Of a DNA stretch of 64,000 bases, positions 20,871-38,750 are shown piece by piece. The notes below the pieces were generated by a model. It was not told the DNA's origin. It did not search any database and saw only the letters and a list, made by a program, of their open reading frames with translations. The DNA is taken from NCBI RefSeq assembly GCF_000347635.1, contig NC_020514.1, forward strand, positions 1,984,001 to 2,048,000, in the 5' to 3' direction. A program made the translations under genes and the position numbers. Within the stretch, counting starts at the first letter, position 1; each line of letters opens with the position of its first letter. This DNA comes from Paraglaciecola psychrophila 170. Lineage in GTDB: Bacteria; Pseudomonadota; Gammaproteobacteria; Enterobacterales; Alteromonadaceae.

Positions 20871-20873
20871 ATT

Positions 20874-21632: not shown

Positions 21633-21862
21633 TTTTTATTAGCCAAGTGAATTCGCTTTAAAGTGCGATCAATACAATGGTATAAATAAGTTTATCAGAT
21701 TCATTTTCGCATTATTCAGAACCTTAGAAAATAACCTAATCAGTTATGTTTTTTTGGCAATCAATAATATGTATCGATTACCACATAATCCCTTTCTAGC
21801 TGACTCTGGTTACTTAACGCAGTTAGTCAGCCAGTATAAAAATGTCATAGGTATTTATCTAT

Positions 21863-22300
21863 TTATTCCGCATTACGCTTAATGCGTGCAATTGTAGTAA
21901 TTGTTTTTTTCTCAGCTATAAAATCAACTTGCTCATTTAAAGAAAAATAGTCTATTGGCACGAATGTTTTGTAACGTTGACCTACTGTCGATTGTACTTC
22001 TATTAAATCTACAAACTTACCATATTCTTTATTGGCAATAGCACTTCCGACGACTGCGCTTGCGAATTTTAAGCCACTATTAGCGCCTAGGCCTTGAGCA
22101 ATAAAATGCCCTATTAAAGAGCCTGTTGCACGTTTAGAAAAACTGGCATCTACTTGTTTTCTCTCAATGCTGACAATTTGGCCGGTATTTATCATTCCGT
22201 TTTTACCCGTCATCTCTGCCACTTTCGCTGAATTAATACTCGAACATGCTGACAGTGCTAAAAAGCAGGTTACTATCGTTAATTTCTTAATTAAAATCAT
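21863..22300 (-). CDS. SlyB-like small lipoprotein
   Basis: A protein of 145 residues. The N-terminal lipobox FLALSAC (Cys about residue 19) indicates a lipoprotein, probably of the outer membrane. The middle has the glycine-rich hydrophobic segment SLIGHFIAQGLGANSGLKFASAVVG, resembling the glycine-zipper of SlyB/17-kDa-antigen proteins. The C-terminal part (GQIVSIERKQVD, EVQSTVGQRYKTF) resembles the OB-like domain of that family. It is placed between the serine hydrolase and the two-component genes, on the same strand, with 230 bases to the response regulator. Confidence 0.6.
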   Translation of the reverse strand: MILIKKLTIVTCFLALSACSSINSAKVAEMTGKNGMINTGQIVSIERKQVDASFSKRATGSLIGHFIAQGLGANSGLKFASAVVGSAIANKEYGKFVDLIEVQSTVGQRYKTFVPIDYFSLNEQVDFIAEKKTITTIARIKRNAE

Positions 22301-22462
22301 TTTTTTCTCTCTTTATATTAAAATTATTCTGCCTTTTAGTGACACAATAGATAAAATTTTCTAAGTCTCGCAGCTGACTGAGGCTATAAATATCGAGCTT
22401 AGTCTTGCTAAAATATATATTACTCAGGGCCTGAACTGAGAGCCCGAGTGATTGAATGGTGA

Positions 22463-23629
22463 CTAAAGTTCGTTTGTCAGCACTGTCTTAATCAAACCAT
22501 CAAAAGTTGTTGAACAAGTGTTTACGCCACCGTTACCACAATTAAAAAGCAGGACGATACTTGTATTTGTATCTTCGATGTATACGTTTTGCGCCATGTA
22601 CCCAAACGTTAATCCAGCATGGGCGTAAACTCGATGACCATCGATTGTGGCTATATCAATACCCAGTCCTGATTTTTCATTAGCACCTTGTGTAATGAGG
22701 TTATCTTCGCCAAACAGAGTGCTTTTCACCGTTTCATTGGCAAAACTGTTATCTGTTATTAGCGCTTTAAGAAAGGTAGCCATGTCTTCAACACTTGAAA
22801 CAACAGGTGAATCGGCCTGACTGGTATTAATTAACATCGGTCTTGTATCAATGACATCACCGTCATCAGTGGTCAAATAACCAGATATAAAATCACCTAC
22901 GAAAGCTTCACTGCCTTTATAATAGGTGGCTGTCATACCTAGCGGGTTAAAAAAACGATTTCGCATGGCGACAGAATGATGTTCACCCAACACTTCATCC
23001 ATAATAAGCCCTGCCAACGAATAACCCGAATTCGAATATTGATAACCTTCGCCAGGTAAAAAATAGCCAGGGTGGTCAAATATTAATTCGATAAAGTCGA
23101 TATCAGTTTTAAGCACTTCAGGCGCATCAAGTAATAAGTCGATATATGCATCACCATCGTCAATTTCGTCGTAATTAAATACGCCGCTAGTATGGTTTAA
23201 TAGTTGACGAAAGGTCATCTGATGACTGTTAGCAATGCGCGACAATATACTTTCGCTGAGCCAGGTATCCAATGTGTCATCCAGATTGAGTTGCCCTTCA
23301 TCGGCTAACTGTGCAGCGAGCAGGGCGATCATTTTTTTACCGACACTGGCTGTGGGGATAATATCGCCAACTTGCATGGCCTGCTGTGTTTGCAAATTTG
23401 AAACGCCCGCGCTGCCTATAAATCGAGTTTGTGGTGTTTCTACCAGCAGGATAATGCCCGGTATATCGGTCGATATATGATCGTCGATCACATCCTGATA
23501 ATTAACAACTACTGGTGGTGGTATGGGTGGCAGTGGGTCAGGTATGACCTTTGAGCTTTTTCCGCAAGCCGTTAGTTGCAATATCATTACGCAGGTTAAT
23601 AATAATTTGAATGAGTGAGTTATAGCCAT
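22463..23629 (-). CDS. Serine hydrolase of the class C beta-lactamase family, lipoprotein
   Basis: A protein of 388 residues. Lipobox LQLTAC near residue 22 places it on a membrane in the periplasm. Catalytic motifs are SVGKK (SxxK; Ser near 95) and YSNSGY (YxN). The third motif is HAG near residue 340 (RVYAHAGLTFGY), as in peptidase/esterase members rather than true AmpC (KTG). These proteins are D-alanyl-D-alanine carboxypeptidases, aminopeptidases or esterases. Proline-rich linker PDPLPPIPPPVV follows the lipid anchor. It sits between DUF3019 and the lipoprotein gene. Its substrate cannot be read from sequence. Confidence 0.8.
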   Translation of the reverse strand: MAITHSFKLLLTCVMILQLTACGKSSKVIPDPLPPIPPPVVVNYQDVIDDHISTDIPGIILLVETPQTRFIGSAGVSNLQTQQAMQVGDIIPTASVGKKMIALLAAQLADEGQLNLDDTLDTWLSESILSRIANSHQMTFRQLLNHTSGVFNYDEIDDGDAYIDLLLDAPEVLKTDIDFIELIFDHPGYFLPGEGYQYSNSGYSLAGLIMDEVLGEHHSVAMRNRFFNPLGMTATYYKGSEAFVGDFISGYLTTDDGDVIDTRPMLINTSQADSPVVSSVEDMATFLKALITDNSFANETVKSTLFGEDNLITQGANEKSGLGIDIATIDGHRVYAHAGLTFGYMAQNVYIEDTNTSIVLLFNCGNGGVNTCSTTFDGLIKTVLTNEL

Positions 23630-23777
23630 GTGTTAATGCCTTTATGTATGTATATCTAAAAATCTACATACATAATAAAGAACTGAAGAAAACAATTGCG
23701 TACAAAATTATTTAAAAGTGTAGCGTTTTGTAGCTTGGTTATTTGCAGCTTAAAAACCGATGTGTGAAAGGTGTTTT

Positions 23778-24200
23778 CTAGAACACACGCCACGATGAGT
23801 GAGACAAACGTTGCGTTGTGTGTACCCAAGCCAATTCCAATACTGAACTAATAATATATACATTATTATTTTGTGACTTTAAGGTAAAAGTCACATTTTG
23901 AGTGACGAAAATATCTGCTTGAAAATTTCCTATATGGCTATTTGACCAACATTTAAGTGGGGTACTTACTTGTGTTGAGTAAAGGCAATAGTCACTTTTT
24001 TTGACAACCTGCCAACTAACATCGACATTAACAAAACAATCTTGCCCTTGACGCATTGAAACACATTGTGTGGGTTGTATGGCTAATTTAGGTAAAGTAG
24101 TTACCTCATCAGCAGATGTGCTGATGCTGATAAGTAGTAATGATAGTAAAAAGGTGCCGCTATTTAGGTTGCTCGTATTTGAGGTTTGCTTAGAATACAT
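23778..24200 (-). CDS. DUF3019 family protein
   Basis: A 140-residue exported protein. The N-terminal segment (about residues 16-30, TFLLSLLLISISTSADE) is a signal peptide. The mature part has four Cys residues (CVSMRQGQDC, DYCLYS, LKCWS) that can form two disulfides, and a pattern of alternating strands, matching DUF3019. Function unknown. Its ATG lies within the 3' end of the MipA gene (11-base overlap), so the two are translated together. The pairing of MipA, DUF3019 and a two-component system is recurrent in Alteromonadales. Confidence 0.7.
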   Translation of the reverse strand: MYSKQTSNTSNLNSGTFLLSLLLISISTSADEVTTLPKLAIQPTQCVSMRQGQDCFVNVDVSWQVVKKSDYCLYSTQVSTPLKCWSNSHIGNFQADIFVTQNVTFTLKSQNNNVYIISSVLELAWVHTTQRLSHSSWRVF

Positions 24201-25005
24201 ATTTCACCAATATTCCTGCTTCAATAATAGAATTTTCATCAACTAGCGGACTATCTGAAATTCCCCTTGGCAAAAGTGTGCCTCTCATAAAACCCTCAAA
24301 CACCCAGTCTTTACTTATTGGATAATCAAAGCCGACCTGACCAGTATATTCATAGCCTGATTTACCCTTGTATAAAGGTAAACCCCCAACTTCGTTTATC
24401 GAATAAAAGAAATTAACCACATCTTCGTTACGATACTCGATACCTGCACTGGTATAAAAATTCCAGTTGTAGAATTGGTAGTTTTGACTTAGCCAAGCTG
24501 ATGCATAAAGTCCATCACCTCCGCTAGCAGCAGCAGCAATAAATTTAAGATGAGTGTTATTAAAATCACCTAAAACACGTAGGCCTAATTTTGAATGACT
24601 TATTCTTGTACTTACATCTTGGGATATTGGTAGTTGGTGCTCTAATTGAGGATGATTCATCGCAACCTGAAGATCATATGACCAGTTCTGAGTATTAAGA
24701 AAGTTATACCCAAATGATATGATTGTTGATTGTTGTTTAGATGTGCCACGCGGGAGTTCTATAAATAATCCATATTTTTGATATCTACCATTAGCGAATA
24801 AAGCTAAACCAGAGCCATTTGAATCATCATCAAATAAAAACGGATCTGATTTATAACGATAACCTAAGCCGATATCAAAGTATGCGCCGTCTCTAATATT
24901 CCCTGTATTACTGCTATTAGCTTCTCCACCTGCGACTGAATGAGAAGCATTGAATATACTGATAACAAACAGTGACACTAATAATAATCTAATAAAGACT
25001 TTCAC
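24190..25005 (-). CDS. MipA/OmpV family outer-membrane protein
   Basis: A protein of 271 residues with signal peptide at 1-26 (LLLVSLFVISIFNASHSVAGG) and amphipathic beta strands throughout, ending in IEAGILVKYVF with a C-terminal aromatic residue as required for outer-membrane insertion. It resembles MipA/OmpV (MltA-interacting protein), a 12-strand barrel scaffold between murein hydrolases and synthases or a stress-induced porin. It is first in the minus-strand block. About 680 bases separate it from the divergent DUF418-type gene, so both promoters lie there. Confidence 0.75.
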   Translation of the reverse strand: MKVFIRLLLVSLFVISIFNASHSVAGGEANSSNTGNIRDGAYFDIGLGYRYKSDPFLFDDDSNGSGLALFANGRYQKYGLFIELPRGTSKQQSTIISFGYNFLNTQNWSYDLQVAMNHPQLEHQLPISQDVSTRISHSKLGLRVLGDFNNTHLKFIAAAASGGDGLYASAWLSQNYQFYNWNFYTSAGIEYRNEDVVNFFYSINEVGGLPLYKGKSGYEYTGQVGFDYPISKDWVFEGFMRGTLLPRGISDSPLVDENSIIEAGILVKYVF

Positions 25006-25688
25006 AAATTTTTTTCCAATAATATTTTTAAAGTGAAACGAGAATATAGTAACAGAATAAAAATGACGTATATCAGTGTACTAAAGTGTAGGTAAATGTA
25101 CGCCTGTCATTAATGTATAAACTATTTTCATTATGCCACTTAAGACCAATAATAAGCATAGCCTTACTCTTTCATATCGAATATCAATCAGCGACAAGGT
25201 AATAAAGTTTTGTTGTTTTAAATAGCGTTTATAGGTCACACAGAAGATTATTAATAACGGGTCTACGTTAAATAGCTGTTTGCCAGAGTCTCGGAAGTGA
25301 CTATTGTTATGCTTATATACATTGTTTTACCTATAGCTCATGGAGTGCTGCTTTAACTAAGATTAACATGGCTAAATGCCAGACTGATATAATTCCAATT
25401 TCAGATTACTAACAGTCATTAGCTATCTCACACCAAAGACCTAAATTTCTCGTTACAGGTGAAACTGTAAACCCAATTAACCGCCTGTTAACTTAACTCG
25501 ATGTAGCATGTTTGTATTGACGTTATCTCTTACCGGGTAATTTCAATCTGCCCATAAATTATGGTTGACGGTTATCCGAGCGTAAGTCGAGAAGAATGAA
25601 AAATACAGTTGGCGATTCTTTATCTTCTCACAAGGTCATTCGGTTTTTATTACCCTGTTAGTAGGGCTCATGTTTAAGAGGTATTTAG
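25006..25688. other. 680-bp divergent intergenic region, no supported gene
   Basis: No plausible gene longer than about 22 codons. A short frame MKNTVGDSLSSHKVIRFLL begins at about 25597 with a weak GAGAAG upstream and ends at a TAG; too little to call. The region must hold promoters for mipA (minus) and for the DUF418-type gene (plus). No recognisable operator was seen. Confidence 0.4.
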
Positions 25689-26768
25689 ATGAAGCAAAGG
25701 GTTACAGGATATGATCTCGCAAGAGCTTTAGCGCTATTCGGCATGGTTATTGTTAACTTTAAAGTCGCAATGAGTGCTGAAACGGGTCATCCATTTCTAA
25801 TGAATTTTGCAACGCTGCTTGAAGGGCGTGCATCTGCTTTGTTTGTGATGCTAGCTGGTGTGGGTATAACCTTTTTAACCGCTAAAGCAATAAATTCTGC
25901 TGATAATACGTTGGTATTAAAAACCCGAATTTCCGTGATAAAACGTGGTTTATTACTGGTGGTCATTGGCCTTCTATTTACGCCAATTTGGGAAGCCGAC
26001 ATTCTTCATTTCTATGGTTTCTATTTCTTATTTGCCGCTGCTATATTTATGTTTCAAGAGAAGTCCTTATTGTGGATAACGATGATCATCGTGATGATTT
26101 TTCCAGTGTTGATGCTGCTGTTTAATTTCGAACAGAACTGGGATTGGGAAACATTAACGTATAATAATTTTTGGTCGGTTGATGGAATGATACGGCATAT
26201 ATTTTTTAACGGTTTTCATCCAGTCTTTCCATGGGCCGCTTTTTTGACTTTTGGTATGTGGCTGGGCAGGCAAGACCTTTCCGTAAAGTTAGCAAGAAAA
26301 AAATTGTTTGTAGGGGCTCTGATGACTTTAGTTATCACTGAATGTAGTTTTTATTATTTAAGAAACATGCTCAACGACGCAGGCGGATCAGCAATGACGT
26401 CTGAAGAAATCATATTCCTGTTTTCCACGTCTATTATTCCTCCCTTACCCCAGTACATAGTGTCTGCGGGCAGTTCTGCCGTTTTAGTGTTAATAGCGTG
26501 TCTATATTTATCAGAGCGATTCTCTGAAACAAAGATCACCCAGTATCTTTATCAAACAGGGCAACTATCTCTTACCTTATATATTGCGCATATCATTGTA
26601 GGCATGGGTTTCCTTGAGTCTATTGGACGATTAGAAAACCAAAGTATAGATTTCTCCTTACTTAGCGCGTTGATATTTTGTGCAAGTGGTGTCGCTTTCA
26701 GTGTTGTTTGGCTTAAATTTTTTGACGTTGGCCCATTGGAATGGGTCTTTCGAGAAGTGGCGAAATAA
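25689..26768 (+). CDS. DUF418 / YeiB-type multi-spanning membrane protein
   Basis: A protein of 359 residues with about 9-10 predicted membrane segments. It starts with the signature of the family, GYDLARALALFGMVIVNFK, and contains GRASALFVMLAGVGITF and the C-terminal DUF418-like stretch QYLYQTGQLSLTLYIAHIIVG. These proteins belong to the acyltransferase/heparan-alpha-glucosaminide acetyltransferase superfamily and may transfer an acyl group onto an envelope glycan, though no substrate is established. GAGG ribosome binding site 8 bases upstream. The following exported protein gene is 90 bases downstream and may be in the same operon. Confidence 0.75.
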   Translation: MKQRVTGYDLARALALFGMVIVNFKVAMSAETGHPFLMNFATLLEGRASALFVMLAGVGITFLTAKAINSADNTLVLKTRISVIKRGLLLVVIGLLFTPIWEADILHFYGFYFLFAAAIFMFQEKSLLWITMIIVMIFPVLMLLFNFEQNWDWETLTYNNFWSVDGMIRHIFFNGFHPVFPWAAFLTFGMWLGRQDLSVKLARKKLFVGALMTLVITECSFYYLRNMLNDAGGSAMTSEEIIFLFSTSIIPPLPQYIVSAGSSAVLVLIACLYLSERFSETKITQYLYQTGQLSLTLYIAHIIVGMGFLESIGRLENQSIDFSLLSALIFCASGVAFSVVWLKFFDVGPLEWVFREVAK

Positions 26769-26858
26769 CAGCGCCAGCCAGCTTAATCAGCAATGTAATC
26801 GCAACAACAAAAAAAATTATAATTTAACCAGTACCTATTCTGCGTGAGTAGGAGCACT

Positions 26859-27704
26859 ATGATAAAACCGGAAGACATCATGTTTAGGCCATCTATTTTT
26901 GCTGCAATACTTATTGCCGCCACACCAATCCAAGCACTAGCAGCAGCGGGTAAAGTACACCCAACATTTAATTATGATATTTTTTTGCAAGGCGAAGATG
27001 TCGGAGACATGCTGCTTCAGATCATAAAAAAACCACAAGGTGGATATCAAATTTTAGAGAGCACCACGATCCAAAAAAGCAGTGACTGGGATGAAATAAA
27101 CCTCCGCTCAACAACAAATGAAATGTATTCCCTTGAAAATAATCTTATTAGCGCAGATAAAAAGACCTTCGATCAAACAAAAGCCTATTGGTCAAAAATC
27201 GATAGCTTGGGTGCCGATCTTTGGATGAGTTTTTCAGAAATAAAAGATTTAGCGCAACAAGAGGAGAGCGATCTAATTGGTTTTTCCATTGCAGTGTTAG
27301 ATGATTTCATTCCCAAGGCAAGCGAAGTCCTCGGACTTTCACAACTTCTGCTCGCGGATACAAAAGCTCGACCAACAAGTATACGTGTCCCTAAAAATTT
27401 ACATCACACCACAATAGCCAACCTGCCAAAGTACTGGTCAATTCATCAACAAACGTTACCCGCCAAAATACAGTTATTAGACATTGAAACAACCTCAATT
27501 ACACAAATGAAAACTGAATACAGAGGACTTGATGTGAAAACTTTGGGCGGGGATGAAGTACCTACCCATCACTACACTCTTACTTCAGAAAACAGCGCAC
27601 CTCTTAATATTTGGCTTGCGGTCAATGAAAACCACATCCCCTATTTTTTTGAGCTCAAAACAAACAGCAACAGTGGGGACTTTATTATAAAACGTAAACC
27701 ATGA
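26859..27704 (+). CDS. Exported protein of unknown function (DUF6134/DUF3108-like)
   Basis: The start is taken at ATG 26859 because AGGAGC lies 6 bases upstream; GTG 26844 and ATG 26880 are alternatives. About 281 residues. A signal peptide (FRPSIFAAILIAATPIQALA, cut near AAAGK) exports it. The mature part has the pattern of DUF3108/DUF6134 proteins: FNYDIFLQGEDVGDMLLQI early, a repeated beta-strand framework, YRGLDVKTLGGDEVPTHHYT late, and a C-terminal IPYFFEL segment. Its role is unknown. The assignment is by pattern only. Confidence 0.45.
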   Translation: MIKPEDIMFRPSIFAAILIAATPIQALAAAGKVHPTFNYDIFLQGEDVGDMLLQIIKKPQGGYQILESTTIQKSSDWDEINLRSTTNEMYSLENNLISADKKTFDQTKAYWSKIDSLGADLWMSFSEIKDLAQQEESDLIGFSIAVLDDFIPKASEVLGLSQLLLADTKARPTSIRVPKNLHHTTIANLPKYWSIHQQTLPAKIQLLDIETTSITQMKTEYRGLDVKTLGGDEVPTHHYTLTSENSAPLNIWLAVNENHIPYFFELKTNSNSGDFIIKRKP

Positions 27705-27815: not shown

Positions 27816-29111
27816 CTACTTAAACAATATTTTAACTTCCCTGCCGCCAACAATGTTACTTGTTGAGTATTTCCAATGTCCTTTATTGCAAATCTTTTCA
27901 ACCAGTATTAACCCTAAGCCATAACCATAGTCGGAATTATCCGTACTATCCGGATTAACCGCATTAACAAAAGTTTCGTTTCTATCTACATTTTTTATCA
28001 GAGCCATTCGTTCATCTAGATCGATCTCAATTCTACCGCTAATTGTGTACTGCATGGCATTTCTTACTATGTTGCCCAACACTATTTTGAACGAGGGAAA
28101 GTTACAACAGATATTGCTATTTTCACAATTGATCACAACATCCACATTTTTGTTTTTCAAAAGATAACGGCTATCAGCAACAATGGAGTGGATGGTTGAG
28201 CGTAAATCAAACTGCGTTGATTCAATAGATGAGCCTCCATCGTGATCTAACCAAAGCAGTGTTTCTGAAAGCTGCTGCATGTCCTTCACTGCATTTTCTA
28301 TTCTTAATAATGGTACCGTGAGTTTTGGAGAAACATGTTGGATTTCTGAATACATATTCATAAGCTCAATATTTACTGAAGAAACAGCTATTGGCGTTCT
28401 TAATTCGTGACTAGCCGCTCTGATAAAAAACGTATCTTTCTCAATCAAACGTAAATTTTCATTTAATGATTCTGCCAAAGTGTTAGCAAGTCCATTAAGT
28501 TCTTCAAATGTAAAATTGGGTACATTGGTAATTTTATTGCTTTTGTTTAATTGTGATGTCCAATCTTTTAGCTCTCTAAGTGGACGAATAAATTTTAACG
28601 TCATATACACAATCATGAAAATAGATAGAATAAACGTGACAAGCACAGCCCATAAAATAGGTTCAAAAGCCTCATTTAAATAAGTGTTGATTGATATTGA
28701 AAGTTCTGAATTTTCGGTTTTATGATAAACAATCGTCAGAAATTCATCTGCATTTAGCTTTGTCCGTCCAATTAAGTAGTCACGATTGGATAGCTCAATA
28801 GACCTAAAACCAACCCATGAAGCATTGTTGTTAATATACAAAGCCAAGTATTGTGGCATTTGTTCGGTTTCAACATAAAATACAAAGTCTTCATCTTTGG
28901 GTATTGGAGTAGAGCGGTCTAACTGATATTCAGCAATATAGTTTTCAGACATTGAGTCCATCATAAAGATGATTGGAATGTCGGTGCCTTTATCAAAAAT
29001 CGTCGTCCCTTTCCAAATAAAAAATACCAATAAAGTCGAGACGATTATTATGCTTACGGATAAAACGTAGTTTTTAACACTCCAGTTACTGTTCTCTAAT
29101 AGCAAAACCAT
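27816..29111 (-). CDS. Sensor histidine kinase, second two-component system
   Basis: A protein of 431 residues. TM1 at about 14-33 and TM2 at about 148-170 (ILWAVLVTFILSIFMIVYMTL) surround a periplasmic sensor of about 115 residues. The H-box is AASHELRTPIAVSSV (His about 237), N-box GNIVRNAMQYT, and the G2 box YGYGLGLILVEKIC. The G1 box is poorly conserved: the region around NVDRNETFVNAVNP lacks a clear DxGxG, so ATP binding may be atypical. The start lies within the response-regulator gene (26-base overlap). It sits downstream of the acyl ligase/decarboxylase genes on the same strand and is a candidate sensor for that pathway. Confidence 0.85.
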   Translation of the reverse strand: MVLLLENSNWSVKNYVLSVSIIIVSTLLVFFIWKGTTIFDKGTDIPIIFMMDSMSENYIAEYQLDRSTPIPKDEDFVFYVETEQMPQYLALYINNNASWVGFRSIELSNRDYLIGRTKLNADEFLTIVYHKTENSELSISINTYLNEAFEPILWAVLVTFILSIFMIVYMTLKFIRPLRELKDWTSQLNKSNKITNVPNFTFEELNGLANTLAESLNENLRLIEKDTFFIRAASHELRTPIAVSSVNIELMNMYSEIQHVSPKLTVPLLRIENAVKDMQQLSETLLWLDHDGGSSIESTQFDLRSTIHSIVADSRYLLKNKNVDVVINCENSNICCNFPSFKIVLGNIVRNAMQYTISGRIEIDLDERMALIKNVDRNETFVNAVNPDSTDNSDYGYGLGLILVEKICNKGHWKYSTSNIVGGREVKILFK

Positions 29112-29751
29112 GCCCTCGTATTGTGTGAATAAGCGTTGGCCCTTGCCCTAAAACCTGTCGAAGTTTGTGAATGTGTACTTTCAAGTTATCACTATCTGGC
29201 TGTTCTTCCCCCCAGATAGCAACAAGCAATGCTTCTTTCGGCACAAGGTTGGGTGAATGACGCATTAATACTTCTAAAATCGTCCAACAAATAGGCGTTA
29301 GTTCCAACTTTATACCTCCCCGAGTAACGGACTTTGTTTGAATATTCATCTCGAGGTCATCCACTTTGAAAAACTTACTGAGCCCACTTTTTCGTTTTGA
29401 TAACGCGTATATTCTGGCTAATAATTCGCTTAAGGCGAAGGGTTTGACTAAGTAATCATCAGCGCCAGAATCAAAACCTTCCAGCTTGTCAGACAGACTA
29501 TCTCTTGCTGTTAACATCAGCACCGGAACATCATTACCCTTGAGTCTTAATTGTGAGCAAACCTTTAAGCCATTGATACCAGGTAAATTCACATCCAACA
29601 CCAAAACGTCATAAACGTTGCTGCTTGCTAAAGAAAGCCCAGTATTACCATTGCCAGCGAAGTCATGTATGATATTTTCGAGTGCAAAAAAATCCAAAAT
29701 ACTATTGGCTAAATCAATATTGTCTTCAACTAAAAGCACTCTTAAATTCAT
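29086..29751 (-). CDS. OmpR/QseB-type response regulator
   Basis: A protein of 221 residues. Receiver: VEDNID near the start, phospho-acceptor in VLVLDVNLPGING (Asp about residue 51), and conserved Lys in LVKPFALSELLARI. The C-terminal winged helix has NLKVHIHKLRQVLGQG and ends HTIRGHGFAI. It is paired with the overlapping kinase gene. It starts 151 bases downstream of the PLP-decarboxylase gene, on the same strand, so it may be either a separate unit or the tail of that cluster. Confidence 0.88.
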   Translation of the reverse strand: MNLRVLLVEDNIDLANSILDFFALENIIHDFAGNGNTGLSLASSNVYDVLVLDVNLPGINGLKVCSQLRLKGNDVPVLMLTARDSLSDKLEGFDSGADDYLVKPFALSELLARIYALSKRKSGLSKFFKVDDLEMNIQTKSVTRGGIKLELTPICWTILEVLMRHSPNLVPKEALLVAIWGEEQPDSDNLKVHIHKLRQVLGQGPTLIHTIRGHGFAIREQ

Positions 29752-29902: not shown

Positions 29903-31108
29903 TTAGATAAGCATTTCCAAAGCTTCACCTTGGCTTAAGAACCCTTGAGGACTGGCTGACGCGCCATATGCCCCTGATAACATAACTGCAACGTAACCTC
30001 CTATTTCACTCATTGGGAGGGATATGTTGGATGCAATAATATCTAGTGGAGTGCATAAAGGACCTACAATATCGACATGTTGGGTTAGTGTCGAATCTAT
30101 GCAATTTGCCAGAAAAACGGGATGATTTTTTCTAAATACCTGCCCTAAATTACCAGAGTTGGCCAGATGATGATGCATCCCCCCATCACATACCCAAAAG
30201 GTTTTGCCTCTTGACTCTTTAATGTCAACTATTTTACATAAATACATACCCGCATTTGCGACTAAAAACCGACCTAATTCTAAATGGACCTCTGTATCGA
30301 CCAACTTGGTAGCCAATTCATCTAATAATTCATGTAACCCCAAGCACAAACGCTTAATATCTACCGGTACTTGATCACTATGATAGCTAACACCAATCCC
30401 ACCGCCAATATTAATTTGCTTGGGCAAAACATTGATTTGCTCAGATAATACAAAAGCTAATTCCAATGCTTTTCGGTAAGACTCCAACAGTGCGTCAACT
30501 GATAAATTTTGGGAACCACTAAAAATATGAAATCCAACGAAATTTATTGATTGCTCATTCACCATCGAAAAAGTTTCAGCAAATACCTCCGCATCGATAC
30601 CAAACTGTTTAGGACCTCCAGACATTTTCATGGCGGCTCCCTTAAGTTCAAAATCAGGATTGATTCGAAATGCAACGTTAGCCTGTTTTTTATGTAAACT
30701 TGCTATTTTTTGAATTCGAATCAATTCTGTTTTTGATTCTACATTGATGACAACACCCGAAATAATCGCCGCCAGTAGACTTTTTTCGGTTTTTCCTGGT
30801 CCTGCGATACTGACCTTGCCGGGCTCTATGCCGGTACTTAATGCGGTTAACAACTCTTGATGAGAGGCTACATCTAAGCCATCAAGATAATTAGCAGCAT
30901 GTGCAACCAAGTTAGGCATCGGATTGGCTTTGATTGCATAATGTAGCTTTATCTTTTTCGGTAGTAAGGTTTTCAACGCTATGATGTTGTTTTTAATTTG
31001 ATTGCGATCATATATATAACAGGGTGTACCCCCGGCTATATGCTCCAAGTCACTGGGCGTTTTACCTGCAAAAACAAGTTGATTGTCTTTTTTATTGATT
31101 GATAACAT
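29903..31108 (-). CDS. PLP-dependent decarboxylase, exosortase-A-associated type (TIGR03099-like)
   Basis: A protein of 401 residues of the alanine-racemase-fold (type III) decarboxylase superfamily, like diaminopimelate or ornithine decarboxylase. The PLP lysine lies in YAIKANPMPN (Lys about residue 61). Other motifs are the phosphate-binding GGGIGVSY (about 231-238), the catalytic-cysteine-like GPLCTPLDI (about 345) and SGAYGASASP near the C-terminus. It would decarboxylate a basic or other amino acid to give an amine; which one is not readable. Its start overlaps the ligase gene by 17 bases, so they are co-translated. The family is usually found with exosortase A exopolysaccharide loci, but no exosortase is in this window. 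Confidence 0.85.
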   Translation of the reverse strand: MLSINKKDNQLVFAGKTPSDLEHIAGGTPCYIYDRNQIKNNIIALKTLLPKKIKLHYAIKANPMPNLVAHAANYLDGLDVASHQELLTALSTGIEPGKVSIAGPGKTEKSLLAAIISGVVINVESKTELIRIQKIASLHKKQANVAFRINPDFELKGAAMKMSGGPKQFGIDAEVFAETFSMVNEQSINFVGFHIFSGSQNLSVDALLESYRKALELAFVLSEQINVLPKQINIGGGIGVSYHSDQVPVDIKRLCLGLHELLDELATKLVDTEVHLELGRFLVANAGMYLCKIVDIKESRGKTFWVCDGGMHHHLANSGNLGQVFRKNHPVFLANCIDSTLTQHVDIVGPLCTPLDIIASNISLPMSEIGGYVAVMLSGAYGASASPQGFLSQGEALEMLI

Positions 31109-32759
31109 TTACGGTCACTCCCTTTTTAGCAGACATCCCTTGTTTAGACTCACGCATGTTTAGGCCCCCATGTTTAGAAAATATCTCCTGAAAAACATTT
31201 TGATACTGTTTCTTAAGTAGAGTCTTATTATGTTTCCCATTGGGGTTTCTGGGTATTTCTAAACAAAAATCTATGTGATGTGGGGTCATATAATTAGGCA
31301 GGTGTAAGCCGCAAAAACGTTTAATAGATAGAAGTAAATCGCTAGTCTGCACATCAGGTTTGACTGTTATTAGGGTAACAATACCTTGGCCTAATTGTTT
31401 GTGTGGTACGCCAAATACAACAATATCTGCTACAGAATTATGTTTACAGATCACACTTTCAATTTCGTTTGGGCTCACTCTATATCCAGACGTTTTGATC
31501 ATGTCGTCATTACGTCCAACAAAATATATGAAACCTTCTTCGTCTTTGGTAACAATATCACCTGACCACACTGCCAACTGTTCGCTAGGTAATTCTTTAA
31601 GTCTATTTGGCGTTGCTTTAAATCTGCGTTCAGTCATTTCTTTGTTTCCCCAATACCCTTGGGCTACAAGTGGTCCAGCATGAACCAATTCTCCTTGCTC
31701 ATGTGGTTCACATTCTTCACCATTTACATTTATAATAAAAATTTTCGCATTGGGTATAGCCTTACCGATAGAAGTAGGGCGCTTCAAAGCTTGTTCTGGC
31801 GGAAGAAAACAAGAACGAAAAGATTCTGTCAGCCCATACATTAAGAAAGGCTTAACGTTTGGCATTTGTTTTAGAAGTTTTTTTAAAATGTCTTCTAGTA
31901 AGGCGCCTCCAGAATTCGTTATGTATCGCAGATTTTGAGAGGCTGCTTTTGGCCACTCCAGATTGGCAAGTTGATTCCATGCTGTAGGGACTAAAGCAAG
32001 CCCTGTAATAGACTGTTGTTGCACAACTTTTATCAACTCTTTTGCAAACAAGTATTCAAATAAATAACAGCTACCGCCTGATAAAAACGAAACAGTTAAT
32101 TGACTAAAGCCGTAGTCAAAACTGATGGGCAATGCAAGTAACAAGCGATCAGATGAAGAATTATCTAGGTACTGAGCAACACTTTGTGCACCAAGAATTA
32201 AATTACGCTGAGTTAATGTGACACCCTTCGCTGGGCCTGAACTTCCTGATGTATAGAATATTGCAGCGGTGTCACTTTCCAGGATGTCTGGAAGAGAGGG
32301 ATTACGCAGCGAAAGTGTGTGTAGTTGAAACCACGATAAAACTGATGAGGAACTTGGGTATTCGTTGCTATCATCTGTTATCACAATACCTTTTATGGAC
32401 TTGGGTAAAACCGACTTTAAGGTGTCATATCGTGACTTGTTTGTTATAAGAATGGTTGCTGAACAGTCGGACAGAATATGCCCTACTTGCAATGGTTTAA
32501 GTATCGGGTTGATTGGAACAAATATCCCTCCAGCAGCGCTTGTAGCAAAAATACTAATGACGCTTTCAAAGCATTTTGGTAAGAAAACAGCCACTCTTTC
32601 GGACTTATTCAGACCTAACGATAAGAAAGAACGCGCGAGAGTTTCTATTTCCTCGTTTAAATGTGTGTATGTTAACCATCGTTTCTTCTCGCCTATAGCA
32701 GGGCAATCGGGCCGTATCTGTGCCTGCACTTTTACCAGCTGATGAATTGTTTTTATCAT
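31092..32759 (-). CDS. AMP-forming acyl-CoA/acyl-ACP ligase (TIGR03098-like)
   Basis: A 555-residue member of the ANL superfamily. Motifs in order: P-loop FYTSGSSGPAKGVTLTQ (about residues 170-186), YGLTES (about 306), hinge and adenylate-binding SGDIVTKDEEGFIYFVGRND with the following MIKTSGYRVSP (about 405-435), and the catalytic Lys region NPNGKHNKTLLKK near 520. It adenylates a carboxylic acid and loads it onto CoA or onto an acyl carrier protein; an ACP is encoded two genes upstream. The gene follows the frameshifted acyltransferase by 81 bases. The loaded acid is unknown. Confidence 0.88.
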   Translation of the reverse strand: MIKTIHQLVKVQAQIRPDCPAIGEKKRWLTYTHLNEEIETLARSFLSLGLNKSERVAVFLPKCFESVISIFATSAAGGIFVPINPILKPLQVGHILSDCSATILITNKSRYDTLKSVLPKSIKGIVITDDSNEYPSSSSVLSWFQLHTLSLRNPSLPDILESDTAAIFYTSGSSGPAKGVTLTQRNLILGAQSVAQYLDNSSSDRLLLALPISFDYGFSQLTVSFLSGGSCYLFEYLFAKELIKVVQQQSITGLALVPTAWNQLANLEWPKAASQNLRYITNSGGALLEDILKKLLKQMPNVKPFLMYGLTESFRSCFLPPEQALKRPTSIGKAIPNAKIFIINVNGEECEPHEQGELVHAGPLVAQGYWGNKEMTERRFKATPNRLKELPSEQLAVWSGDIVTKDEEGFIYFVGRNDDMIKTSGYRVSPNEIESVICKHNSVADIVVFGVPHKQLGQGIVTLITVKPDVQTSDLLLSIKRFCGLHLPNYMTPHHIDFCLEIPRNPNGKHNKTLLKKQYQNVFQEIFSKHGGLNMRESKQGMSAKKGVTVNVINQ

Positions 32760-32840
32760 TGAAAACCTAATATACTAATAACGTTGTAAGTGTGTAATTA
32801 AATACGTTTGAGTTGGCGTTACATCAAAAGATATGCGGCT

Positions 32841-33688
32841 CTATCGCCATCTTTTGTAAAACCAGCACCACTGCTCTGGGTATGTGAGAATGATGGTTTC
32901 GAACTGTCGATATATTGTTTGCATTGCGAATTGAAACGCTTTGGGTGATTGTCCTATGGGAAATTCAGAAACCGTTTCAAGATGGATTGTATAAGTGTTA
33001 TTTTTTCTAATACGGCGTAAGCAACAAGCAATGGCGTTTTTGCATAGGCTGAAAGCATAACTGGGCCTGCGGGAGCGCCGGTTTTTTTCTGAAAAAATTC
33101 AACGTCTGTATCACTTCCAAAGTGGTCCGAATGCAAACAAACCACACCATTTGAGCTAATTTTTCTTAGCAAAGAAAAGAATGCGCCCGCTTGAGATTTA
33201 TCCACACAACAAACACCGTTTTTCGCATAGAGACTAAATAAGCCAGCAGCGAATTTAGGCACCTTCGAAAGTGTAGTTACTCTTCCTGTTAGCTTTTGCA
33301 ATGCAAATGGAACGGCTTCATAACAACTAAGATGCATGGTCGCAATGCTAAGAGGAACACCTGATGCAATTATCGCCTTGGTTTCTTTATCCATCTCAAA
33401 AGTATATTCAAGGTCTTCAAACCAAAAAATTTCTAAAACTCCAAAAACGATATGCTGATAAGCGGTAATTGCCAAATATTGTATTCTGTCTTCACTGCTT
33501 TGATCAGTCATCGCCACGCGTAGATTATTGATAGAACGTTTTCTTGTTTTTGGTGATAGAGCAAATATTATTCGGGCAATTCCAAACGCAATTTTTTTTC
33601 TGGTCTGTCTATTTCCTAACTTAAATAAGAAAATGATCATGACTATCGTTTTAGCTGCGATTTTTTGAGATAGGGTTAGGTTGTTCAT
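32841..33688 (-). pseudogene. LpxL/HtrB-like acyltransferase with a single-base frameshift near the 3' end
   Basis: Uncorrected, the frame stops after 244 residues at 32954. Beyond the A6 run (about 33003-33008) another frame carries the expected ending: TYTIHLETVSEFPIGQSPKA, then TYPEQWCWFYKRWR to a TAG at 32841-32843. One extra A restores a protein of about 282 residues. The catalytic HX4E motif HLSCYE is intact (about residue 119). The family transfers acyl groups from ACP to lipids at the inner-membrane face. Its ATG overlaps the ACP stop (ATGA). Single-base homopolymer loss may be a sequencing error; if real, the active site survives but the ending is lost. Confidence 0.75.
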
Positions 33689-33930
33689 ATAGCTGGTGGA
33701 TTTTTAATCAACGATGTTAAGCTACCGAACGTTTCAAAGTGCTGAGCTTCTAGATGTTCGATATCAACTTTTAATACAAAACGTTTTTCTATTTCTATCA
33801 AGAGTAAAACAATAGACATCGAGTCAAGCTCACTAATTTCACCCAATAACTTTGTACTACTTATAAATTTTGACGTGTCTATATTTAAAATTTCTGACAA
33901 CACACCTTTTAACTGTTGAATATATTCCAC
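33685..33930 (-). CDS. Acyl carrier protein
   Basis: An 81-residue acidic helical protein with the 4'-phosphopantetheine attachment site ELDSMSIV (Ser about residue 37). The preceding helix and the following LLLIEIEKRF match a carrier-protein fold. It is the first gene of the acyl cluster and overlaps the acyltransferase gene by 4 bases. It would carry the acyl group activated by the downstream ligase. It is unlike the housekeeping AcpP and fits the specialised carriers seen with exosortase-A-type ligases. Confidence 0.8.
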   Translation of the reverse strand: MEYIQQLKGVLSEILNIDTSKFISSTKLLGEISELDSMSIVLLLIEIEKRFVLKVDIEHLEAQHFETFGSLTSLIKNPPAI

Positions 33931-34364
33931 TGAGTACTCCTTATTTGATTAATAGCATTCTATAAATGATTGAGTTAATGAATGGTTAATAGGTCAGTAA
34001 AAGATAAATCTAGTGGTTTTATTTAGAAATAATTGAGTGAGCGGTCAATACTTAAATATAATTATGTGAAAAGCTTAACCACCTATTAATCTAATGCAAA
34101 GTATGGTTTTTCAAAGTGATTGTTATATAAATTTACTTTTAGAATAAAGCAGTCTTTTTAAGTCAAAGATTCTCGGTTGATGAGTCCAACACTTCAAGTC
34201 GATGTTAGGCAACAATGGATCCTATAATTATAATTGCGCAACTAATACTTCACAACCAGCGAAATACGCCCAAACATGCAGCTAACAGGCAATGGTCTGG
34301 ACAACTAAAGCACTCTTTGACCTTTGGTTTACTGTCTATTTCTGTGGGACTTGGGGCGACTAAC
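33931..34364. other. 430-bp gap holding the promoter of the acyl cluster
   Basis: No gene supported. The sequence just before the ACP start contains AGTACTCC, read on the minus strand as GGAGTACT, a good ribosome binding site. The segment to about 34130 is A+T rich, suitable for a promoter, but I see no clear operator. Further away lies A+T-balanced DNA with no readable coding remnant. Confidence 0.35.
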
Positions 34365-35341
34365 TTAGTTGGATAACAACCTGTTCTGACGACTTAACCA
34401 TTCATCTAAGACATGATTGAATTCTGGCGCTACGGCTTTGTCTCCCTTCCAAATTAGTTTAAATAAAAAGGCAAGACCGGGTCATTGTTGATTAAAATGT
34501 TTAGCATCAAGCATGCCGTGAGTTGCATTGTTAATGATAGTAATTTGTATGTTATGTTGCTCATCAACTAACTTTTCGACCACTGATTTTGTATTGTCAA
34601 TATCCACGTTTAGGTCTTTATCCCAAAGTAACAATAACATGGGTTGTTTTAGTCCGACGTAATCTTGTGTCGCATTAACACTTGAGTTTTTTAATATAAA
34701 TCCATATCTAGACTTGGTCATTTGCTTGGCCTTAAGTCCATATTGCTTGAGATATAAGTCGTAGCTGGGTTTTTGCTCTAAGAACTCAATCTCTTGGATA
34801 TGTGATGCATAGGCAGCATTAATGACTGTTTCATTCGCGCCTTCTTGCATTAGCCGCACGCGAGTAAGGTACCAGCTTTGTTCTAGCCAATCCCTATCAT
34901 AAATCCCACATCTGGGTTGTTTTTAGCTAAAGCTGGCACGACCCAACCGGCTTGACTAAAACCAATAAGTCCAACTTGAGTGCCTGAATAGCCGTAACGC
35001 TTTTGAATAACGTTAATCGCCGACTGAACTTCCCGTTGCCGGTCTTGCATCGATTGTGTTAACCAGTTCCCAGTTGAACTGCCAACACCGGGCTTATCCC
35101 AGCTAAAAATAGCAAACCCCTGTTTTAAGAGTCGTTTCCATATAAGTGGATAATAGCCATGAGCTTCATAATCTAGGGGCCCATCTCCATGCACAAAAAG
35201 AATGACGGCCTTTGGTTTACCGTTGTCAGGTTGTAAATAGTGCCCTAAAAGTGAATCCTCACCATTTTGAAATTCGACTGATTCGGCCTTAGCGAAAGAC
35301 ATCGATATGCAGGCCATAAGTACCACCACTAAACGATTCAT
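34365..35341 (-). pseudogene. Broken alpha/beta hydrolase, exported
   Basis: Starts at ATG 35341 with a signal peptide (VVVLMACISMSFAKAE); the in-frame ATG 35377 would remove it. Oxyanion motif LFVHGDGPLDYEAHGYYP and nucleophile elbow GFSQAG are intact. After FMIGIG a deletion near 34888 changes frame; the rest runs as WLEQSWYLTRVRLMQEGANE through LLLLWDKDLNVD to HGMLDAKHFNQQ, where an in-frame TGA at about 34480 interrupts before the final segment ending DEWLSRQN and a TAA at 34365-34367. Frameshift outside any long homopolymer plus nonsense makes this a true pseudogene. It is in the same orientation as the hydroxylase and ABC exporter genes upstream. Confidence 0.8.
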
Positions 35342-35345
35342 GCGT

Positions 35346-36224
35346 CTATTCACCCTCAGTCTTTTGCAAAAGCTCATTTGGTTTCCAACCCGTGCGTCCT
35401 AATGCATAACTGACTTTATGCGATGCACTCTCGGCGCGAATTACTTCCTTATATATTGTACGGAATTCTCTGAAATTGATAGTGAAAGGGTTAGAGGATT
35501 TAAGTTGAGTGGTGAGGCCATAAACTGGTTTTTCATTTTCAAATTGATACGTTCCGAACAGCCTGTCCCAGAGTATTAAAATACCTCCATAATTCTTATC
35601 AATATAATGTGCATTTGTGGCGTGGTGAACCCGATGCACTGATGGTGTGTTAAGAACGCCGTCGAGCCATCCGAGTTTGTCTACCTTTTCTGTATGGATC
35701 CATGTTTGATAGAGCACTACAGCAAATAATGACGCTAAAACCTGTATTGCATCGAACCCTATGAGAAGCAAGGGAACAAAAAATATCCATTCGTATAAAC
35801 TTTCAAGCCAAGATAGACGAAGTGCGGTGGTTAAATTGTACTCTTGTGAAGAATGGTGAACGCTATGTACAGCCCAGAGGATACGTCGTTCATGTTCAAT
35901 TCTATGCATCCAGTAATACGTGAAATCGACAGCGATAATTGCGAGTAACCAACTCCACCAGGTCACTGGAATGGTTGAGAATGCGAACTGCTCAGTAGTG
36001 ATAAATCCAATGATGAAAATTGCGCTTATTACCGTGTTATCTAGAATACGATTACCGATTTCGATGGTCACATTCGCCATCGTTTGCTTCCACTCTAGCC
36101 GTCGCTTGGTTGCAACGTCGAAGATTGATTCAATAACCGTAAGTACATAAAAGATAAAACCGATTATGGCTACTGCTGTGAAAAAATCATTAAATTCTAA
36201 TAGGCGAGTGTCAATTTCGTTCAT
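35346..36224 (-). CDS. Sterol desaturase / fatty acid hydroxylase family membrane protein
   Basis: A 292-residue membrane protein with four or so helices. Histidine clusters for the di-iron centre are complete: HRIEHERRILWAVHSVHHSS (HxxxH and HxxHH, about residues 105-125) and later HRVHH (about 196-200). It would hydroxylate or desaturate a membrane lipid acyl chain. The stop lies a few bases from the start of the broken hydrolase gene, and it is about 70 bases downstream of the MsbA-like gene. A second, frameshifted homologue sits at 11767-12591. Confidence 0.85.
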   Translation of the reverse strand: MNEIDTRLLEFNDFFTAVAIIGFIFYVLTVIESIFDVATKRRLEWKQTMANVTIEIGNRILDNTVISAIFIIGFITTEQFAFSTIPVTWWSWLLAIIAVDFTYYWMHRIEHERRILWAVHSVHHSSQEYNLTTALRLSWLESLYEWIFFVPLLLIGFDAIQVLASLFAVVLYQTWIHTEKVDKLGWLDGVLNTPSVHRVHHATNAHYIDKNYGGILILWDRLFGTYQFENEKPVYGLTTQLKSSNPFTINFREFRTIYKEVIRAESASHKVSYALGRTGWKPNELLQKTEGE

Positions 36225-36295: not shown

Positions 36296-38053
36296 CTAAC
36301 TCGTTAAGTCATGAAACTGTTGCTGATAAAGATGATAATAAGCGCCCTTTATTAACAATAATTCTTGATGAGTTCCTTGTTCACAAACACTGCCATTTTC
36401 CATTACCAGTATTTGATCAGCATTCTGTATCGTGCTTAGCCGGTGAGCAATCACGATTGTGGTTTTGTGTTGCTGTAATGTAGACAGTGTTTGTTGGATC
36501 CTGTTTTCTGATTTAGTGTCGAGTGCTGAAGTGGCCTCGTCCAGAATAAGTATTGGAGCATCCCTAAGGATCGCTCTGGCAATCGCAATCCGTTGCCTTT
36601 GTCCTCCAGATAATAGGCCGCCATTTTCTCCGATGTAGGTGTCTAATCCTTCAGGTAACTTTTCAGCAAAACCCCATACATCTGAGACTCTTGCTGCCTC
36701 TTCAATCTCGCCAGTTGTGACAGATTGATGACATCCATATGCAATATTCGCAGCGATGCTGTCGTTAAACAAAACAACTTGCTGAGAGACCAGCGAAAAC
36801 TGTTGTCTTAGATTATTTAATGACAATTGATTTAAGGGAATATCGTCAATGCTAATATGTGGCTCTTGCGTAATATAAAATCTCATCAGTAGGTTTGCTA
36901 TGCTCGATTTGCCGCTGCCAGACTCTCCAACTAATGCGATTGTTTGACCTTTATTTAAAGTGAAACTCACATTCTTTAGGACCAGCTGGCTATTACCCGA
37001 ATAGGAAAAATTGAGATTGCGCACTTTTATATGTTTGCTAAAAGACCTAATCTGTTGCTTTGCAGAATCAGTTTCAACAGGCTCATCAAGCACACTAAAA
37101 AGGCTGCTAGCGGCGACTAAACCTCTTTGTAAAGATTGATTAATATTGGTCAGTTGCTTTAACGGTCTAAGCAAAGAGCCCATGGCGACTAATGTTGTGG
37201 TAAACGCCCCTGCACTGGTCTGGCCTATTACAGCGTCAAGACTTGCTAACCAAAGCACACCGGCTATTGCTAAAGACGCAATGAGTTGAATAGTTGGATT
37301 GCTTATTGCTGACGTTGTTGCGAGCTTCATATATTGCCGGCGATTATTATTATTAGCTTCACTAAATCGTGAACTTTCAAGGCTCTGCGTGGCAAATGCT
37401 AAGACTTCTCTATGGCTACTTATGGAGCGTTCCGTATGCCGTGTTACTTCCCCCATTGCATTTTGCATATTTAAACTGATGTGTTTAAAACGTTTAGATA
37501 CATAATTGATGGCTAATCCTATGACAGGACCAACAATCAAAAATATCAATGATAATTGCCAGCTTGAGTGGAACATTATGCCCAGTAAAACCAAAACGAT
37601 TAGACTCTCTCTAATGCAGACAATGAAGACTTCTGACGTGGCTTTGGAAATTTGCTCAGCGTCGTAGGTTATTTTTGATATCAATTTCCCGGCATTATGC
37701 TTTTGGAAAAAATCCAAAGGTAAATATTGCAAGTGGCTAAACGCCTGGCGCCTGACAGTAAACGTTATCTTACTGCCGATATAAGCCATACAGTAGTTAG
37801 ATATAAAGCTAGCAGCACCTCGAAGCATAAAAATGACGATGACTAATAACGCGCCTAACTTAAGTACATTCCCATCAGACTTAGCCAATCCCTCGTCTAT
37901 TAGCGGTTGAATAAAATAAATCATTCCAGCATCAACAATGCTAAACCCGACAAGACCAACAATAGCAATCAATAGCATGACCTTATGCGGTGCAAAATAT
38001 TTCACTAGCCTGAGCAAGGTTTGTTTGTCACTAGATGAGTTTTCAATAAACAT
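36296..38053 (-). CDS. MsbA-like lipid ABC exporter (permease-ATPase)
   Basis: The frame opens at 38173, but ATG 38053 with an AGGGA site upstream gives 585 residues, matching MsbA (about 582). Six membrane helices occupy roughly residues 20-320. The ATPase domain has Walker A GESGSGKS (about 377), Q-loop LVSQQVVLFN, signature LSGGQRQR, Walker B ILILDEATSALD and the H-loop IAHRLST. It flips lipid A-type or other lipids across the inner membrane at the cost of ATP. Placed before the fatty acid hydroxylase and the acyl-transfer cluster, it could export a lipid made there, though a housekeeping role cannot be excluded. Confidence 0.85.
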   Translation of the reverse strand: MFIENSSSDKQTLLRLVKYFAPHKVMLLIAIVGLVGFSIVDAGMIYFIQPLIDEGLAKSDGNVLKLGALLVIVIFMLRGAASFISNYCMAYIGSKITFTVRRQAFSHLQYLPLDFFQKHNAGKLISKITYDAEQISKATSEVFIVCIRESLIVLVLLGIMFHSSWQLSLIFLIVGPVIGLAINYVSKRFKHISLNMQNAMGEVTRHTERSISSHREVLAFATQSLESSRFSEANNNNRRQYMKLATTSAISNPTIQLIASLAIAGVLWLASLDAVIGQTSAGAFTTTLVAMGSLLRPLKQLTNINQSLQRGLVAASSLFSVLDEPVETDSAKQQIRSFSKHIKVRNLNFSYSGNSQLVLKNVSFTLNKGQTIALVGESGSGKSSIANLLMRFYITQEPHISIDDIPLNQLSLNNLRQQFSLVSQQVVLFNDSIAANIAYGCHQSVTTGEIEEAARVSDVWGFAEKLPEGLDTYIGENGGLLSGGQRQRIAIARAILRDAPILILDEATSALDTKSENRIQQTLSTLQQHKTTIVIAHRLSTIQNADQILVMENGSVCEQGTHQELLLIKGAYYHLYQQQFHDLTS

Positions 38054-38173
38054 AATTTCCCTGATTCGAAGCTGCGTATGGTAGTTAACATTTAAGGTGA
38101 CATGTGCTGGTTCAAAGCTATTATCAAGTGTCATTGCACAACGTGCATGCAAACTGTTGTCCGATAAAGCCAT

Positions 38174-38750
38174 TCAAAAAGGCCATCGCAAGCTTTATTA
38201 ATCAATTGCAGTCAAGTTCTGAGCGTATGATATACAGACGAAAGTTAATAATGAGTTAATGCTTCAAAATGAGATGAATTCGCTCGGCGGTGAAAATGTT
38301 AAGTAGACTAAAGGAATAACTAGTGCTGATATTATTCTTCGCAGACGTTGGATTTTTTGTTGGGCAGGATGTTCACACTGGGCACAATGTTCCGCTTTGC
38401 TGTCTATAACTATTTATCTAAGAAGCACATATCGACGAGTTGCGCGTTATTGAAGAAGAAGTAAATGAGCATCCAGTCAAGCAAGCATCGAAGAACGGCC
38501 CTGATGCAAGTTTGTAAGCGCCACTTTGAGGTGTTTGGGTATCGTTATGCAATCAAACTAATAGCCCTAAGTTACCGATAATCACTGGACTCAGATTGAG
38601 GTTTAGCTTGGAAAGTTATGAGTTAATTGTGTAAATTTAAATGATTGTATTTAGTGTGATGCTTTATCAGGATAAGCAGTCGGTGATTGCGTGAACCTCT
38701 CTCAAATGATACAAATCAATTCCCATTCATTACAACGACAATACTAAGAC
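38174..38750. other. Intergenic region between divergent msbA-like and moeB genes
   Basis: No intact gene. A 31-codon plus-strand stretch at 38422-38517 (EAHIDELRVIEEEVNEHPVK, ending at a TAA) reads like the C-terminal tail of a decayed protein but is too short to name. Promoters for both flanking genes are expected here; none is clear. Confidence 0.3.

Follow-up and report, generated by a model that had tools for sequence, protein, structure and literature searches.

Gene content of the locus

The locus described here lies within a window of 64,000 nucleotides, bases 1984001–2048000 of the single-contig genome (5,413,691 bases) of Paraglaciecola psychrophila 170. Positions are given within the window. 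Four genes on the reverse strand encode an acyl carrier protein (ACP), an acyltransferase, an ANL ligase and a pyridoxal phosphate (PLP) decarboxylase. An earlier sequence-only reading had proposed this same-strand set with overlaps of 4 and 17 bases, and both overlaps were recovered, at 33685–33688 and 31092–31108. The genes are real, but the unit is larger than proposed, as a gene for an MsbA-like lipid flippase is part of the contiguous set in four genomes and the window holds its own MsbA.

The ACP gene (33685–33930) is the first of the operon. Its product carries an LDSM phosphopantetheine site and scored 20.8 bits against PF00550, which is exactly the cut-off. Next comes the open reading frame (ORF) of an LpxL/LpxM-like acyltransferase (32954–33688). 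The HX4E motif previously read in it is present as HLSCYE, but the ORF is truncated by a frame break, and the rest of the conserved C-terminal part is encoded in another frame (32841–33098). The ligase (31092–32759) scored 646.1 bits against TIGR03098, above the curated cut-off of 592.35. The decarboxylase (29903–31108) is BtrK-like, with the motifs GGMHHH and CTPLD, and scored 515.9 bits against TIGR03099 (curated cut-off 478.45). Both were the only members of their families above the cut-off in the genome, with no second ligase or decarboxylase found over these thresholds.

The MsbA-like flippase (36296–38173, reverse strand) reached 662.9 bits against TIGR02203 (cut-off 602). Downstream of it, a membrane enzyme of the fatty acid hydroxylase family (35346–36224, reverse strand) showed a weak likeness to OlsE, with 74.6 bits against a cut-off of 475. 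As previously described, a response regulator (29086–29751) and a sensor histidine kinase (27816–29111), both on the reverse strand, come after the four genes. The regulator belongs to the OmpR family. Its best curated model was PmrA with 171.2 bits (cut-off 330), level with a heavy-metal regulator model (170.9 bits). On the forward strand follow a DUF418/HGSNAT-like membrane protein (25689–26768) and a DUF6134-like protein (26844–27704; 26.7 bits, cut-off 27.9), the latter kept at the same place in both Glaciecola genomes introduced below. The MsbA gene, the fatty-acid-hydroxylase-like gene, the two genes at 25689–27704 and three shared promoters lay outside the earlier reading. Its statement that the window holds no exosortase or glycosyltransferase agrees with Pfam scans of ORFs lying wholly inside the window, which covered 44 of the 45 with a length of 140 aa or more together with two shorter ones and found neither domain.

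Conserved linkage with ACP, MsbA and ligase

The LpxL-like acyltransferase is abbreviated AT, and loci with the ligase at the same place are termed AT-linked. The ligase was searched in 147 genomes of the family and AT in 394 genomes of the order. The AT subfamily was present in ten genomes: that of the window, Glaciecola pallidula DSM 14239 (G088) and Glaciecola sp. 33A (G140), both of the same family, G143, G082, G020, Pseudoalteromonas denitrificans, Thalassotalea marina (G508), G392 and G452. G143, G140, G088, G082 and G020 were reached via the ligase, and G392 and G452 came from the order sample, in which AT was found in four of the 394 genomes, two of them new. A protein-cluster search covered 5.8 billion proteins, of which only the 7996 candidates with most common words were scored. 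Among these, at least 54 AT clusters, including the window's own, were better than 1e-60. Named clusters came from Glaciecola/Brumicola, Paraneptunicella, Pseudoalteromonas, Thalassotalea and Colwellia.

An ACP gene was located directly ahead of AT in all ten genomes. The uninterrupted order ACP-AT-MsbA-ligase-decarboxylase was found in G143, G082, G020 and P. denitrificans. In the window and in G. pallidula, MsbA lies 2.1–2.4 kb upstream with the fatty-acid-hydroxylase gene in between, and all ten compared window genes recur in G. pallidula in the same order. MsbA of G140 was on a separate contig. No ligase stood beside AT in G508, G452 and G392, two of which showed ACP-AT-MsbA and one ACP-AT; each held one TIGR03098 ligase elsewhere, and in G392 the ACP and AT genes stood together, apart from it. 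The ligase was thus present in 10/10 AT genomes versus 40/147 sampled family genomes. Just the three trans cases are independent evidence of co-occurrence.

In the ligase tree, the seven AT-linked ligases formed one branch (support 91/79), which rose to 97/95 with two of the trans cases added. Tree and pocket counts exclude the ligase of L047, which scored below the TIGR03098 cut-off, and L025 had no full decarboxylase, so the ligase and decarboxylase sets of 43 differ by the L047 and L025 rows. The duplicate stretches L060, L061, L063 and L065 (identical to L044, L043, L048 and L042) were dropped from all counts. Weak AT matches in two Geomonas and one deltaproteobacterium (L066–L068) had none of ACP, ligase and decarboxylase in the examined stretch and were excluded. 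The two Geomonas stretches have a distant MsbA-like ABC gene nearby. A search of the open-access literature found no description of this gene set, judged by titles and the beginnings of abstracts among the matches listed.

Shared promoter element and two-component system

A promoter element with the direct repeat TTAAC-N6-TTAAC, a spacer of N9 and a −10-like box precedes the ACP operon (33957–33989, reverse strand). Elements of identical type precede MsbA (38227–38259, reverse strand) and the DUF418 gene (25477–25509, forward strand). An arrangement of this kind, with a direct repeat of 11 bases immediately above a −10-like box, would suit an activator of the OmpR family, and the adjacent regulator is the obvious candidate. 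The search pattern TTAAC-N6-TTAAC-N(9-14)-TRTANNAT was fitted after the sites had been seen, so that what is tested is its rarity. It occurred exactly three times in the 5.41 Mb genome, every time at this locus and with N9. The reversed control pattern had one occurrence, and none of 100 window shuffles reached three motifs.

The motif was also sought in 14 further genomes. G. pallidula had three, all at the locus. G140 had two, before the DUF418 gene and before MsbA on the other contig, and its locus contig ends at the ACP gene. G109 had one with N13 near genes unlike those of the cluster. The other 11 genomes, including five congeners without ligase, had none. The reversed control gave one match in each of two genomes. 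Motif sharing with Glaciecola is partly a matter of common descent, which does not explain three like promoters within one genome. These genes are probably a private regulon of the adjacent two-component system, whose regulator would contact the motif. As a candidate identity, the CarR site of Vibrio vulnificus was compared with the element and did not match.

Frame, constraint and predicted fold of the acyltransferase

Against PF03279 (Lip_A_acyltrans, cut-off 22.3), the truncated ORF scored 20.4 bits, the piece in the other frame 25.3 bits and the G. pallidula relative 53.7 bits. In nine relatives the gene is intact and encodes 277–297 aa. Compared with G. pallidula, both pieces were under purifying selection, with pN/pS of 0.23 (223 codons) and 0.18 (50 codons), as were eight other compared genes. 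An msbA-like gene at 3.06 Mb of the same assembly (L076, 3055000–3059000), probably the housekeeping copy, is frame-broken near homopolymer runs, which makes other frame breaks of this assembly doubtful. An alpha/beta hydrolase gene (34482–35377), which separates the hydroxylase gene from the ACP operon, is likewise spread over two frames. At the matching place G. pallidula (L044) has a different ORF on the opposite strand.

The predicted structure of the intact G. pallidula AT reached a pLDDT of 91.8. At E < 0.001 it matched 14 chains, solely LpxM (two, including 5kn7) and PatA (12). AT has the predicted fold and the HX4E motif in common with these enzymes, but is only 17–20% identical to them and has its own ACP gene upstream. 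Besides AT, the genome yielded a single PF03279 gene.

Decarboxylase and ligase

The nearest solved relative of the decarboxylase was BtrK (2j66, 9.1e-63), while the best diaminopimelate decarboxylase reached 3.1e-44. The enzyme and BtrK both have a GGMHHH stretch and a CTPxD loop, unlike diaminopimelate decarboxylase. CTPxD, but not GGMHHH, also occurs in 6knh. Among the decarboxylases of the set, CTPLD and GG[LM]HHH were each present in 43/43. BtrK turns BtrI-S-glutamate into BtrI-S-GABA (PMC7857480). Since BtrK acts on an amino acid bound to a carrier, its likeness suggests that a single carrier-bound amino acid is handled first by the ligase and then by the decarboxylase, and that the two do not make separate partners for a joining step. 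The decarboxylase had earlier been taken as the maker of a free amine, and this assignment is not supported by the activity of its closest solved relative.

Asp215 and Arg315 of the ligase were invariant in 43/43 sequences, which would point to an acidic amino acid as substrate. The top structure matches of the ligase are peptide synthetases, but these rank by two summed domains, so the structure matches do not favour amino acids.

Relation to exosortase loci

The XrtA exosortase-associated trio of ACP, TIGR03098 ligase and TIGR03099 decarboxylase comprises the same ligase and decarboxylase families as the window set. In the 40 ligase-bearing family genomes, an exosortase was found within 50 kb of the ligase in 18, farther away on the same contig in 10, on another contig in 10 and not at all in two. 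The corresponding numbers for the six AT-linked family genomes were 0, 1, 3 and 2, the three other-contig cases being drafts in which closeness is possible. An exosortase within 50 kb was therefore seen in 0/6 AT-linked versus 18/34 other ligase-bearing family genomes, in agreement with the earlier placement of the set outside exosortase loci. PF09721 (exosortase) had no match in G020 and G082, which hold the linked set, nor in G392. G452 showed a weak exosortase match on another contig.

At 4.08 Mb, the window's genome holds an XrtA polysaccharide locus in which members of TIGR03013, TIGR03006, TIGR03007 and TIGR03027 exceeded their cut-offs. Its only exosortase lies 2.06 Mb from the window's set. 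An exosortase locus elsewhere in the genome that uses these genes had been named in advance as evidence against the proposal. Such a locus exists, but no tie to these genes was found, and a search for signs that the trio works in trans for it returned no support. Each of the five congeners tested contained an exosortase, and the search at E 1e-140 gave no ligase match in any of them, so exosortase loci of this genus can do without the ligase.

An ACP gene stood beside the ligase in 21/34 other family loci, many of them with just 1.5 kb of flank. A TIGR03694-like acyltransferase was found in 10 of 18 ligase stretches of about 20 kb without AT, three of these stretches being from genomes with AT elsewhere and three of the ten matches being checked against the TIGR03694 model, versus none of the seven AT-linked loci. 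This split suggests a common carrier-bound product that is passed to different transferases. Ligase and decarboxylase lie beside a TIGR03694-type acyltransferase in L085, L090 and L049 (by model) and in L087 (by BLAST). For L087, L090 and L049, the exosortase of the genome is separated from these genes by at least hundreds of kb.

Other genes of the window

A second two-component system (19587–21632), a gene of the beta-lactamase family, a DUF3019 protein and a MipA-family protein occupy 19587–25005. The MipA gene points away from the DUF418 promoter. A second gene of the fatty acid hydroxylase family is located at 11767–12363.

Proposed pathway and alternatives

The locus may encode an inducible lipid-aminoacylation pathway that resembles AlmEFG with decarboxylation added, a reading to which we give slightly less than even prospects. 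The ligase would adenylate an amino acid and load it onto the dedicated ACP; an acidic one, for instance glutamate or aspartate, is likeliest. The BtrK-like decarboxylase would then act on the carrier-bound amino acid, and loss of its free carboxylate would yield an omega-amino acyl group, for example GABA or beta-alanine. The LpxL/LpxM-like acyltransferase would hand this group over from ACP to a lipid of the inner leaflet, at a hydroxyl of either lipid A, the acceptor suggested by analogy, or a relative of it, and the cluster's MsbA would flip the product. Via the common direct-repeat promoter, the adjacent two-component system would induce both operons, that of ACP and that of MsbA, along with the DUF418 gene. 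By the same analogy, the pathway likely serves to make the outer surface more positively charged, as a defence against cationic peptides or a shortage of divalent cations. An amino-acid-derived lipid, which the sequence-only reading had considered among its products, remains the likeliest one.

As judged by gene content, the closest known system is AlmEFG of Vibrio cholerae, in which an adenylating ligase, a carrier protein and an LpxL-family transferase are encoded together, as they are here. Glycine is loaded onto AlmF and transferred to lipid A by AlmG under control of CarRS/VprAB (PMC4790380, PMC10433830, PMC9178039, PMC12930378). The window set differs by the added decarboxylase and its own MsbA. 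AlmE activates glycine, which requires no decarboxylation, so the decarboxylase represents an extra step. The butirosin proteins BtrI, BtrJ and BtrK likewise combine a carrier protein, an activating enzyme and a decarboxylase of the alanine-racemase fold. BtrJ is not known to be an ANL enzyme, and neither lipid transfer nor a flippase is known from the butirosin system.

Apart from the fitting of the motif pattern to known sites, several points weigh against the proposed pathway. As regards regulation, the two-component system adjoins the AT locus in only three of the ten AT genomes, and the motif was absent from the other AT genomes searched (G143, G082 and G020 as whole genomes, and the stretches L062, L064, L074 and L075). 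The V. vulnificus CarR site, GACAN6TACA, differs from the window element. The acyltransferase frame is broken in this assembly, for which assembly error and recent mutation both fit, and an AT relative in L075 (9749–10582) is without the HX4E glutamate (HMGCSG). In T. marina the sole TIGR03098 ligase neighbours a TIGR03694 acyltransferase instead of AT and falls in the tree among the ligases that are not AT-linked, so that the trio may have another role in this species. The ACP-bound substrate is proposed from the likeness to BtrK and is not proven by it. The pocket positions of the ligase were taken by eye from a pairwise alignment, in which Asp215 falls on the Asp of an adenylation domain of gramicidin synthase. 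This is where the amino-group-binding Asp is expected, and Arg315 would be in a stretch lining the pocket.

Other points against an amino acid substrate speak at the same time for an acylated amine, as the sequence-only reading had it, in which the ligase loads a fatty acid onto ACP, the decarboxylase makes a free amine, AT joins the two and MsbA exports the product. PF03279 enzymes normally transfer fatty acyl chains with fatty acyl-ACP as donor. Domain by domain, the solved relatives of the ligase were level, with FadD5 at 162.4 bits, the ApnA adenylation domain at 159.3 and gramicidin synthase domains at 141 and 126, and the fatty-acid ligase model PRK06187 scored 313 bits versus 245 for the amino-acid adenylation model. 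The gene of the fatty acid hydroxylase family after MsbA would also suit a fatty acyl product. Set against this are the action of BtrK, the best match of the decarboxylase, on carrier-bound glutamate and the invariant Asp and Arg of the ligase, the Asp in the A4 region, which would better fit an amino acid. On balance the acylated amine appears unlikely, though not far-fetched. The predicted LpxM fold and the presence of just one other PF03279 gene make a second late acyltransferase plausible, in which case AT would take an unusual fatty acyl chain from its own ACP and add it to lipid A, while ligase and decarboxylase would supply the precursor or trim it. We regard this as quite improbable, as PLP decarboxylases with this fold depend on an alpha-amino acid group and the presence of AT in 4/394 order genomes speaks against a housekeeping role.

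That the set is a decaying relic in this strain seems rather improbable. Acyltransferase and hydrolase are both frame-broken, but the purifying selection on both acyltransferase pieces and the eight other genes, the intact promoters and the similar damage near homopolymers in the msbA-like gene at 3.06 Mb argue otherwise. A very improbable explanation is that the trio serves the XrtA polysaccharide locus in trans and that its link with AT and MsbA is accidental. The shared families, the XrtA locus at 4.08 Mb and the 18/40 family genomes with ligase and exosortase within 50 kb would accord with it. It is contradicted by G020 and G082, which hold the linked set without an exosortase, by the 5/5 congeners with an exosortase and no ligase at E 1e-140, and by the kept linkage with AT and MsbA together with the shared promoter.

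Beyond the lipid-aminoacylation pathway itself, a more doubtful, tentative generalisation can be drawn. The trio may be a general GABA- or beta-alanyl-ACP machine for different acyl-ACP transferases, serving TIGR03694 near exosortase polysaccharides and an LpxL-like enzyme here, where it would yield a new omega-aminoacyl lipid A with its own MsbA export and a private regulon. If true, two families of exosortase loci that are hypothetical equivalogs would gain a testable chemistry, and bacteria would have a second carrier-protein way, besides that with glycine, of aminoacylating a lipid. A mass shift of lipid A, or of some other lipid, would then be expected in marine bacteria.

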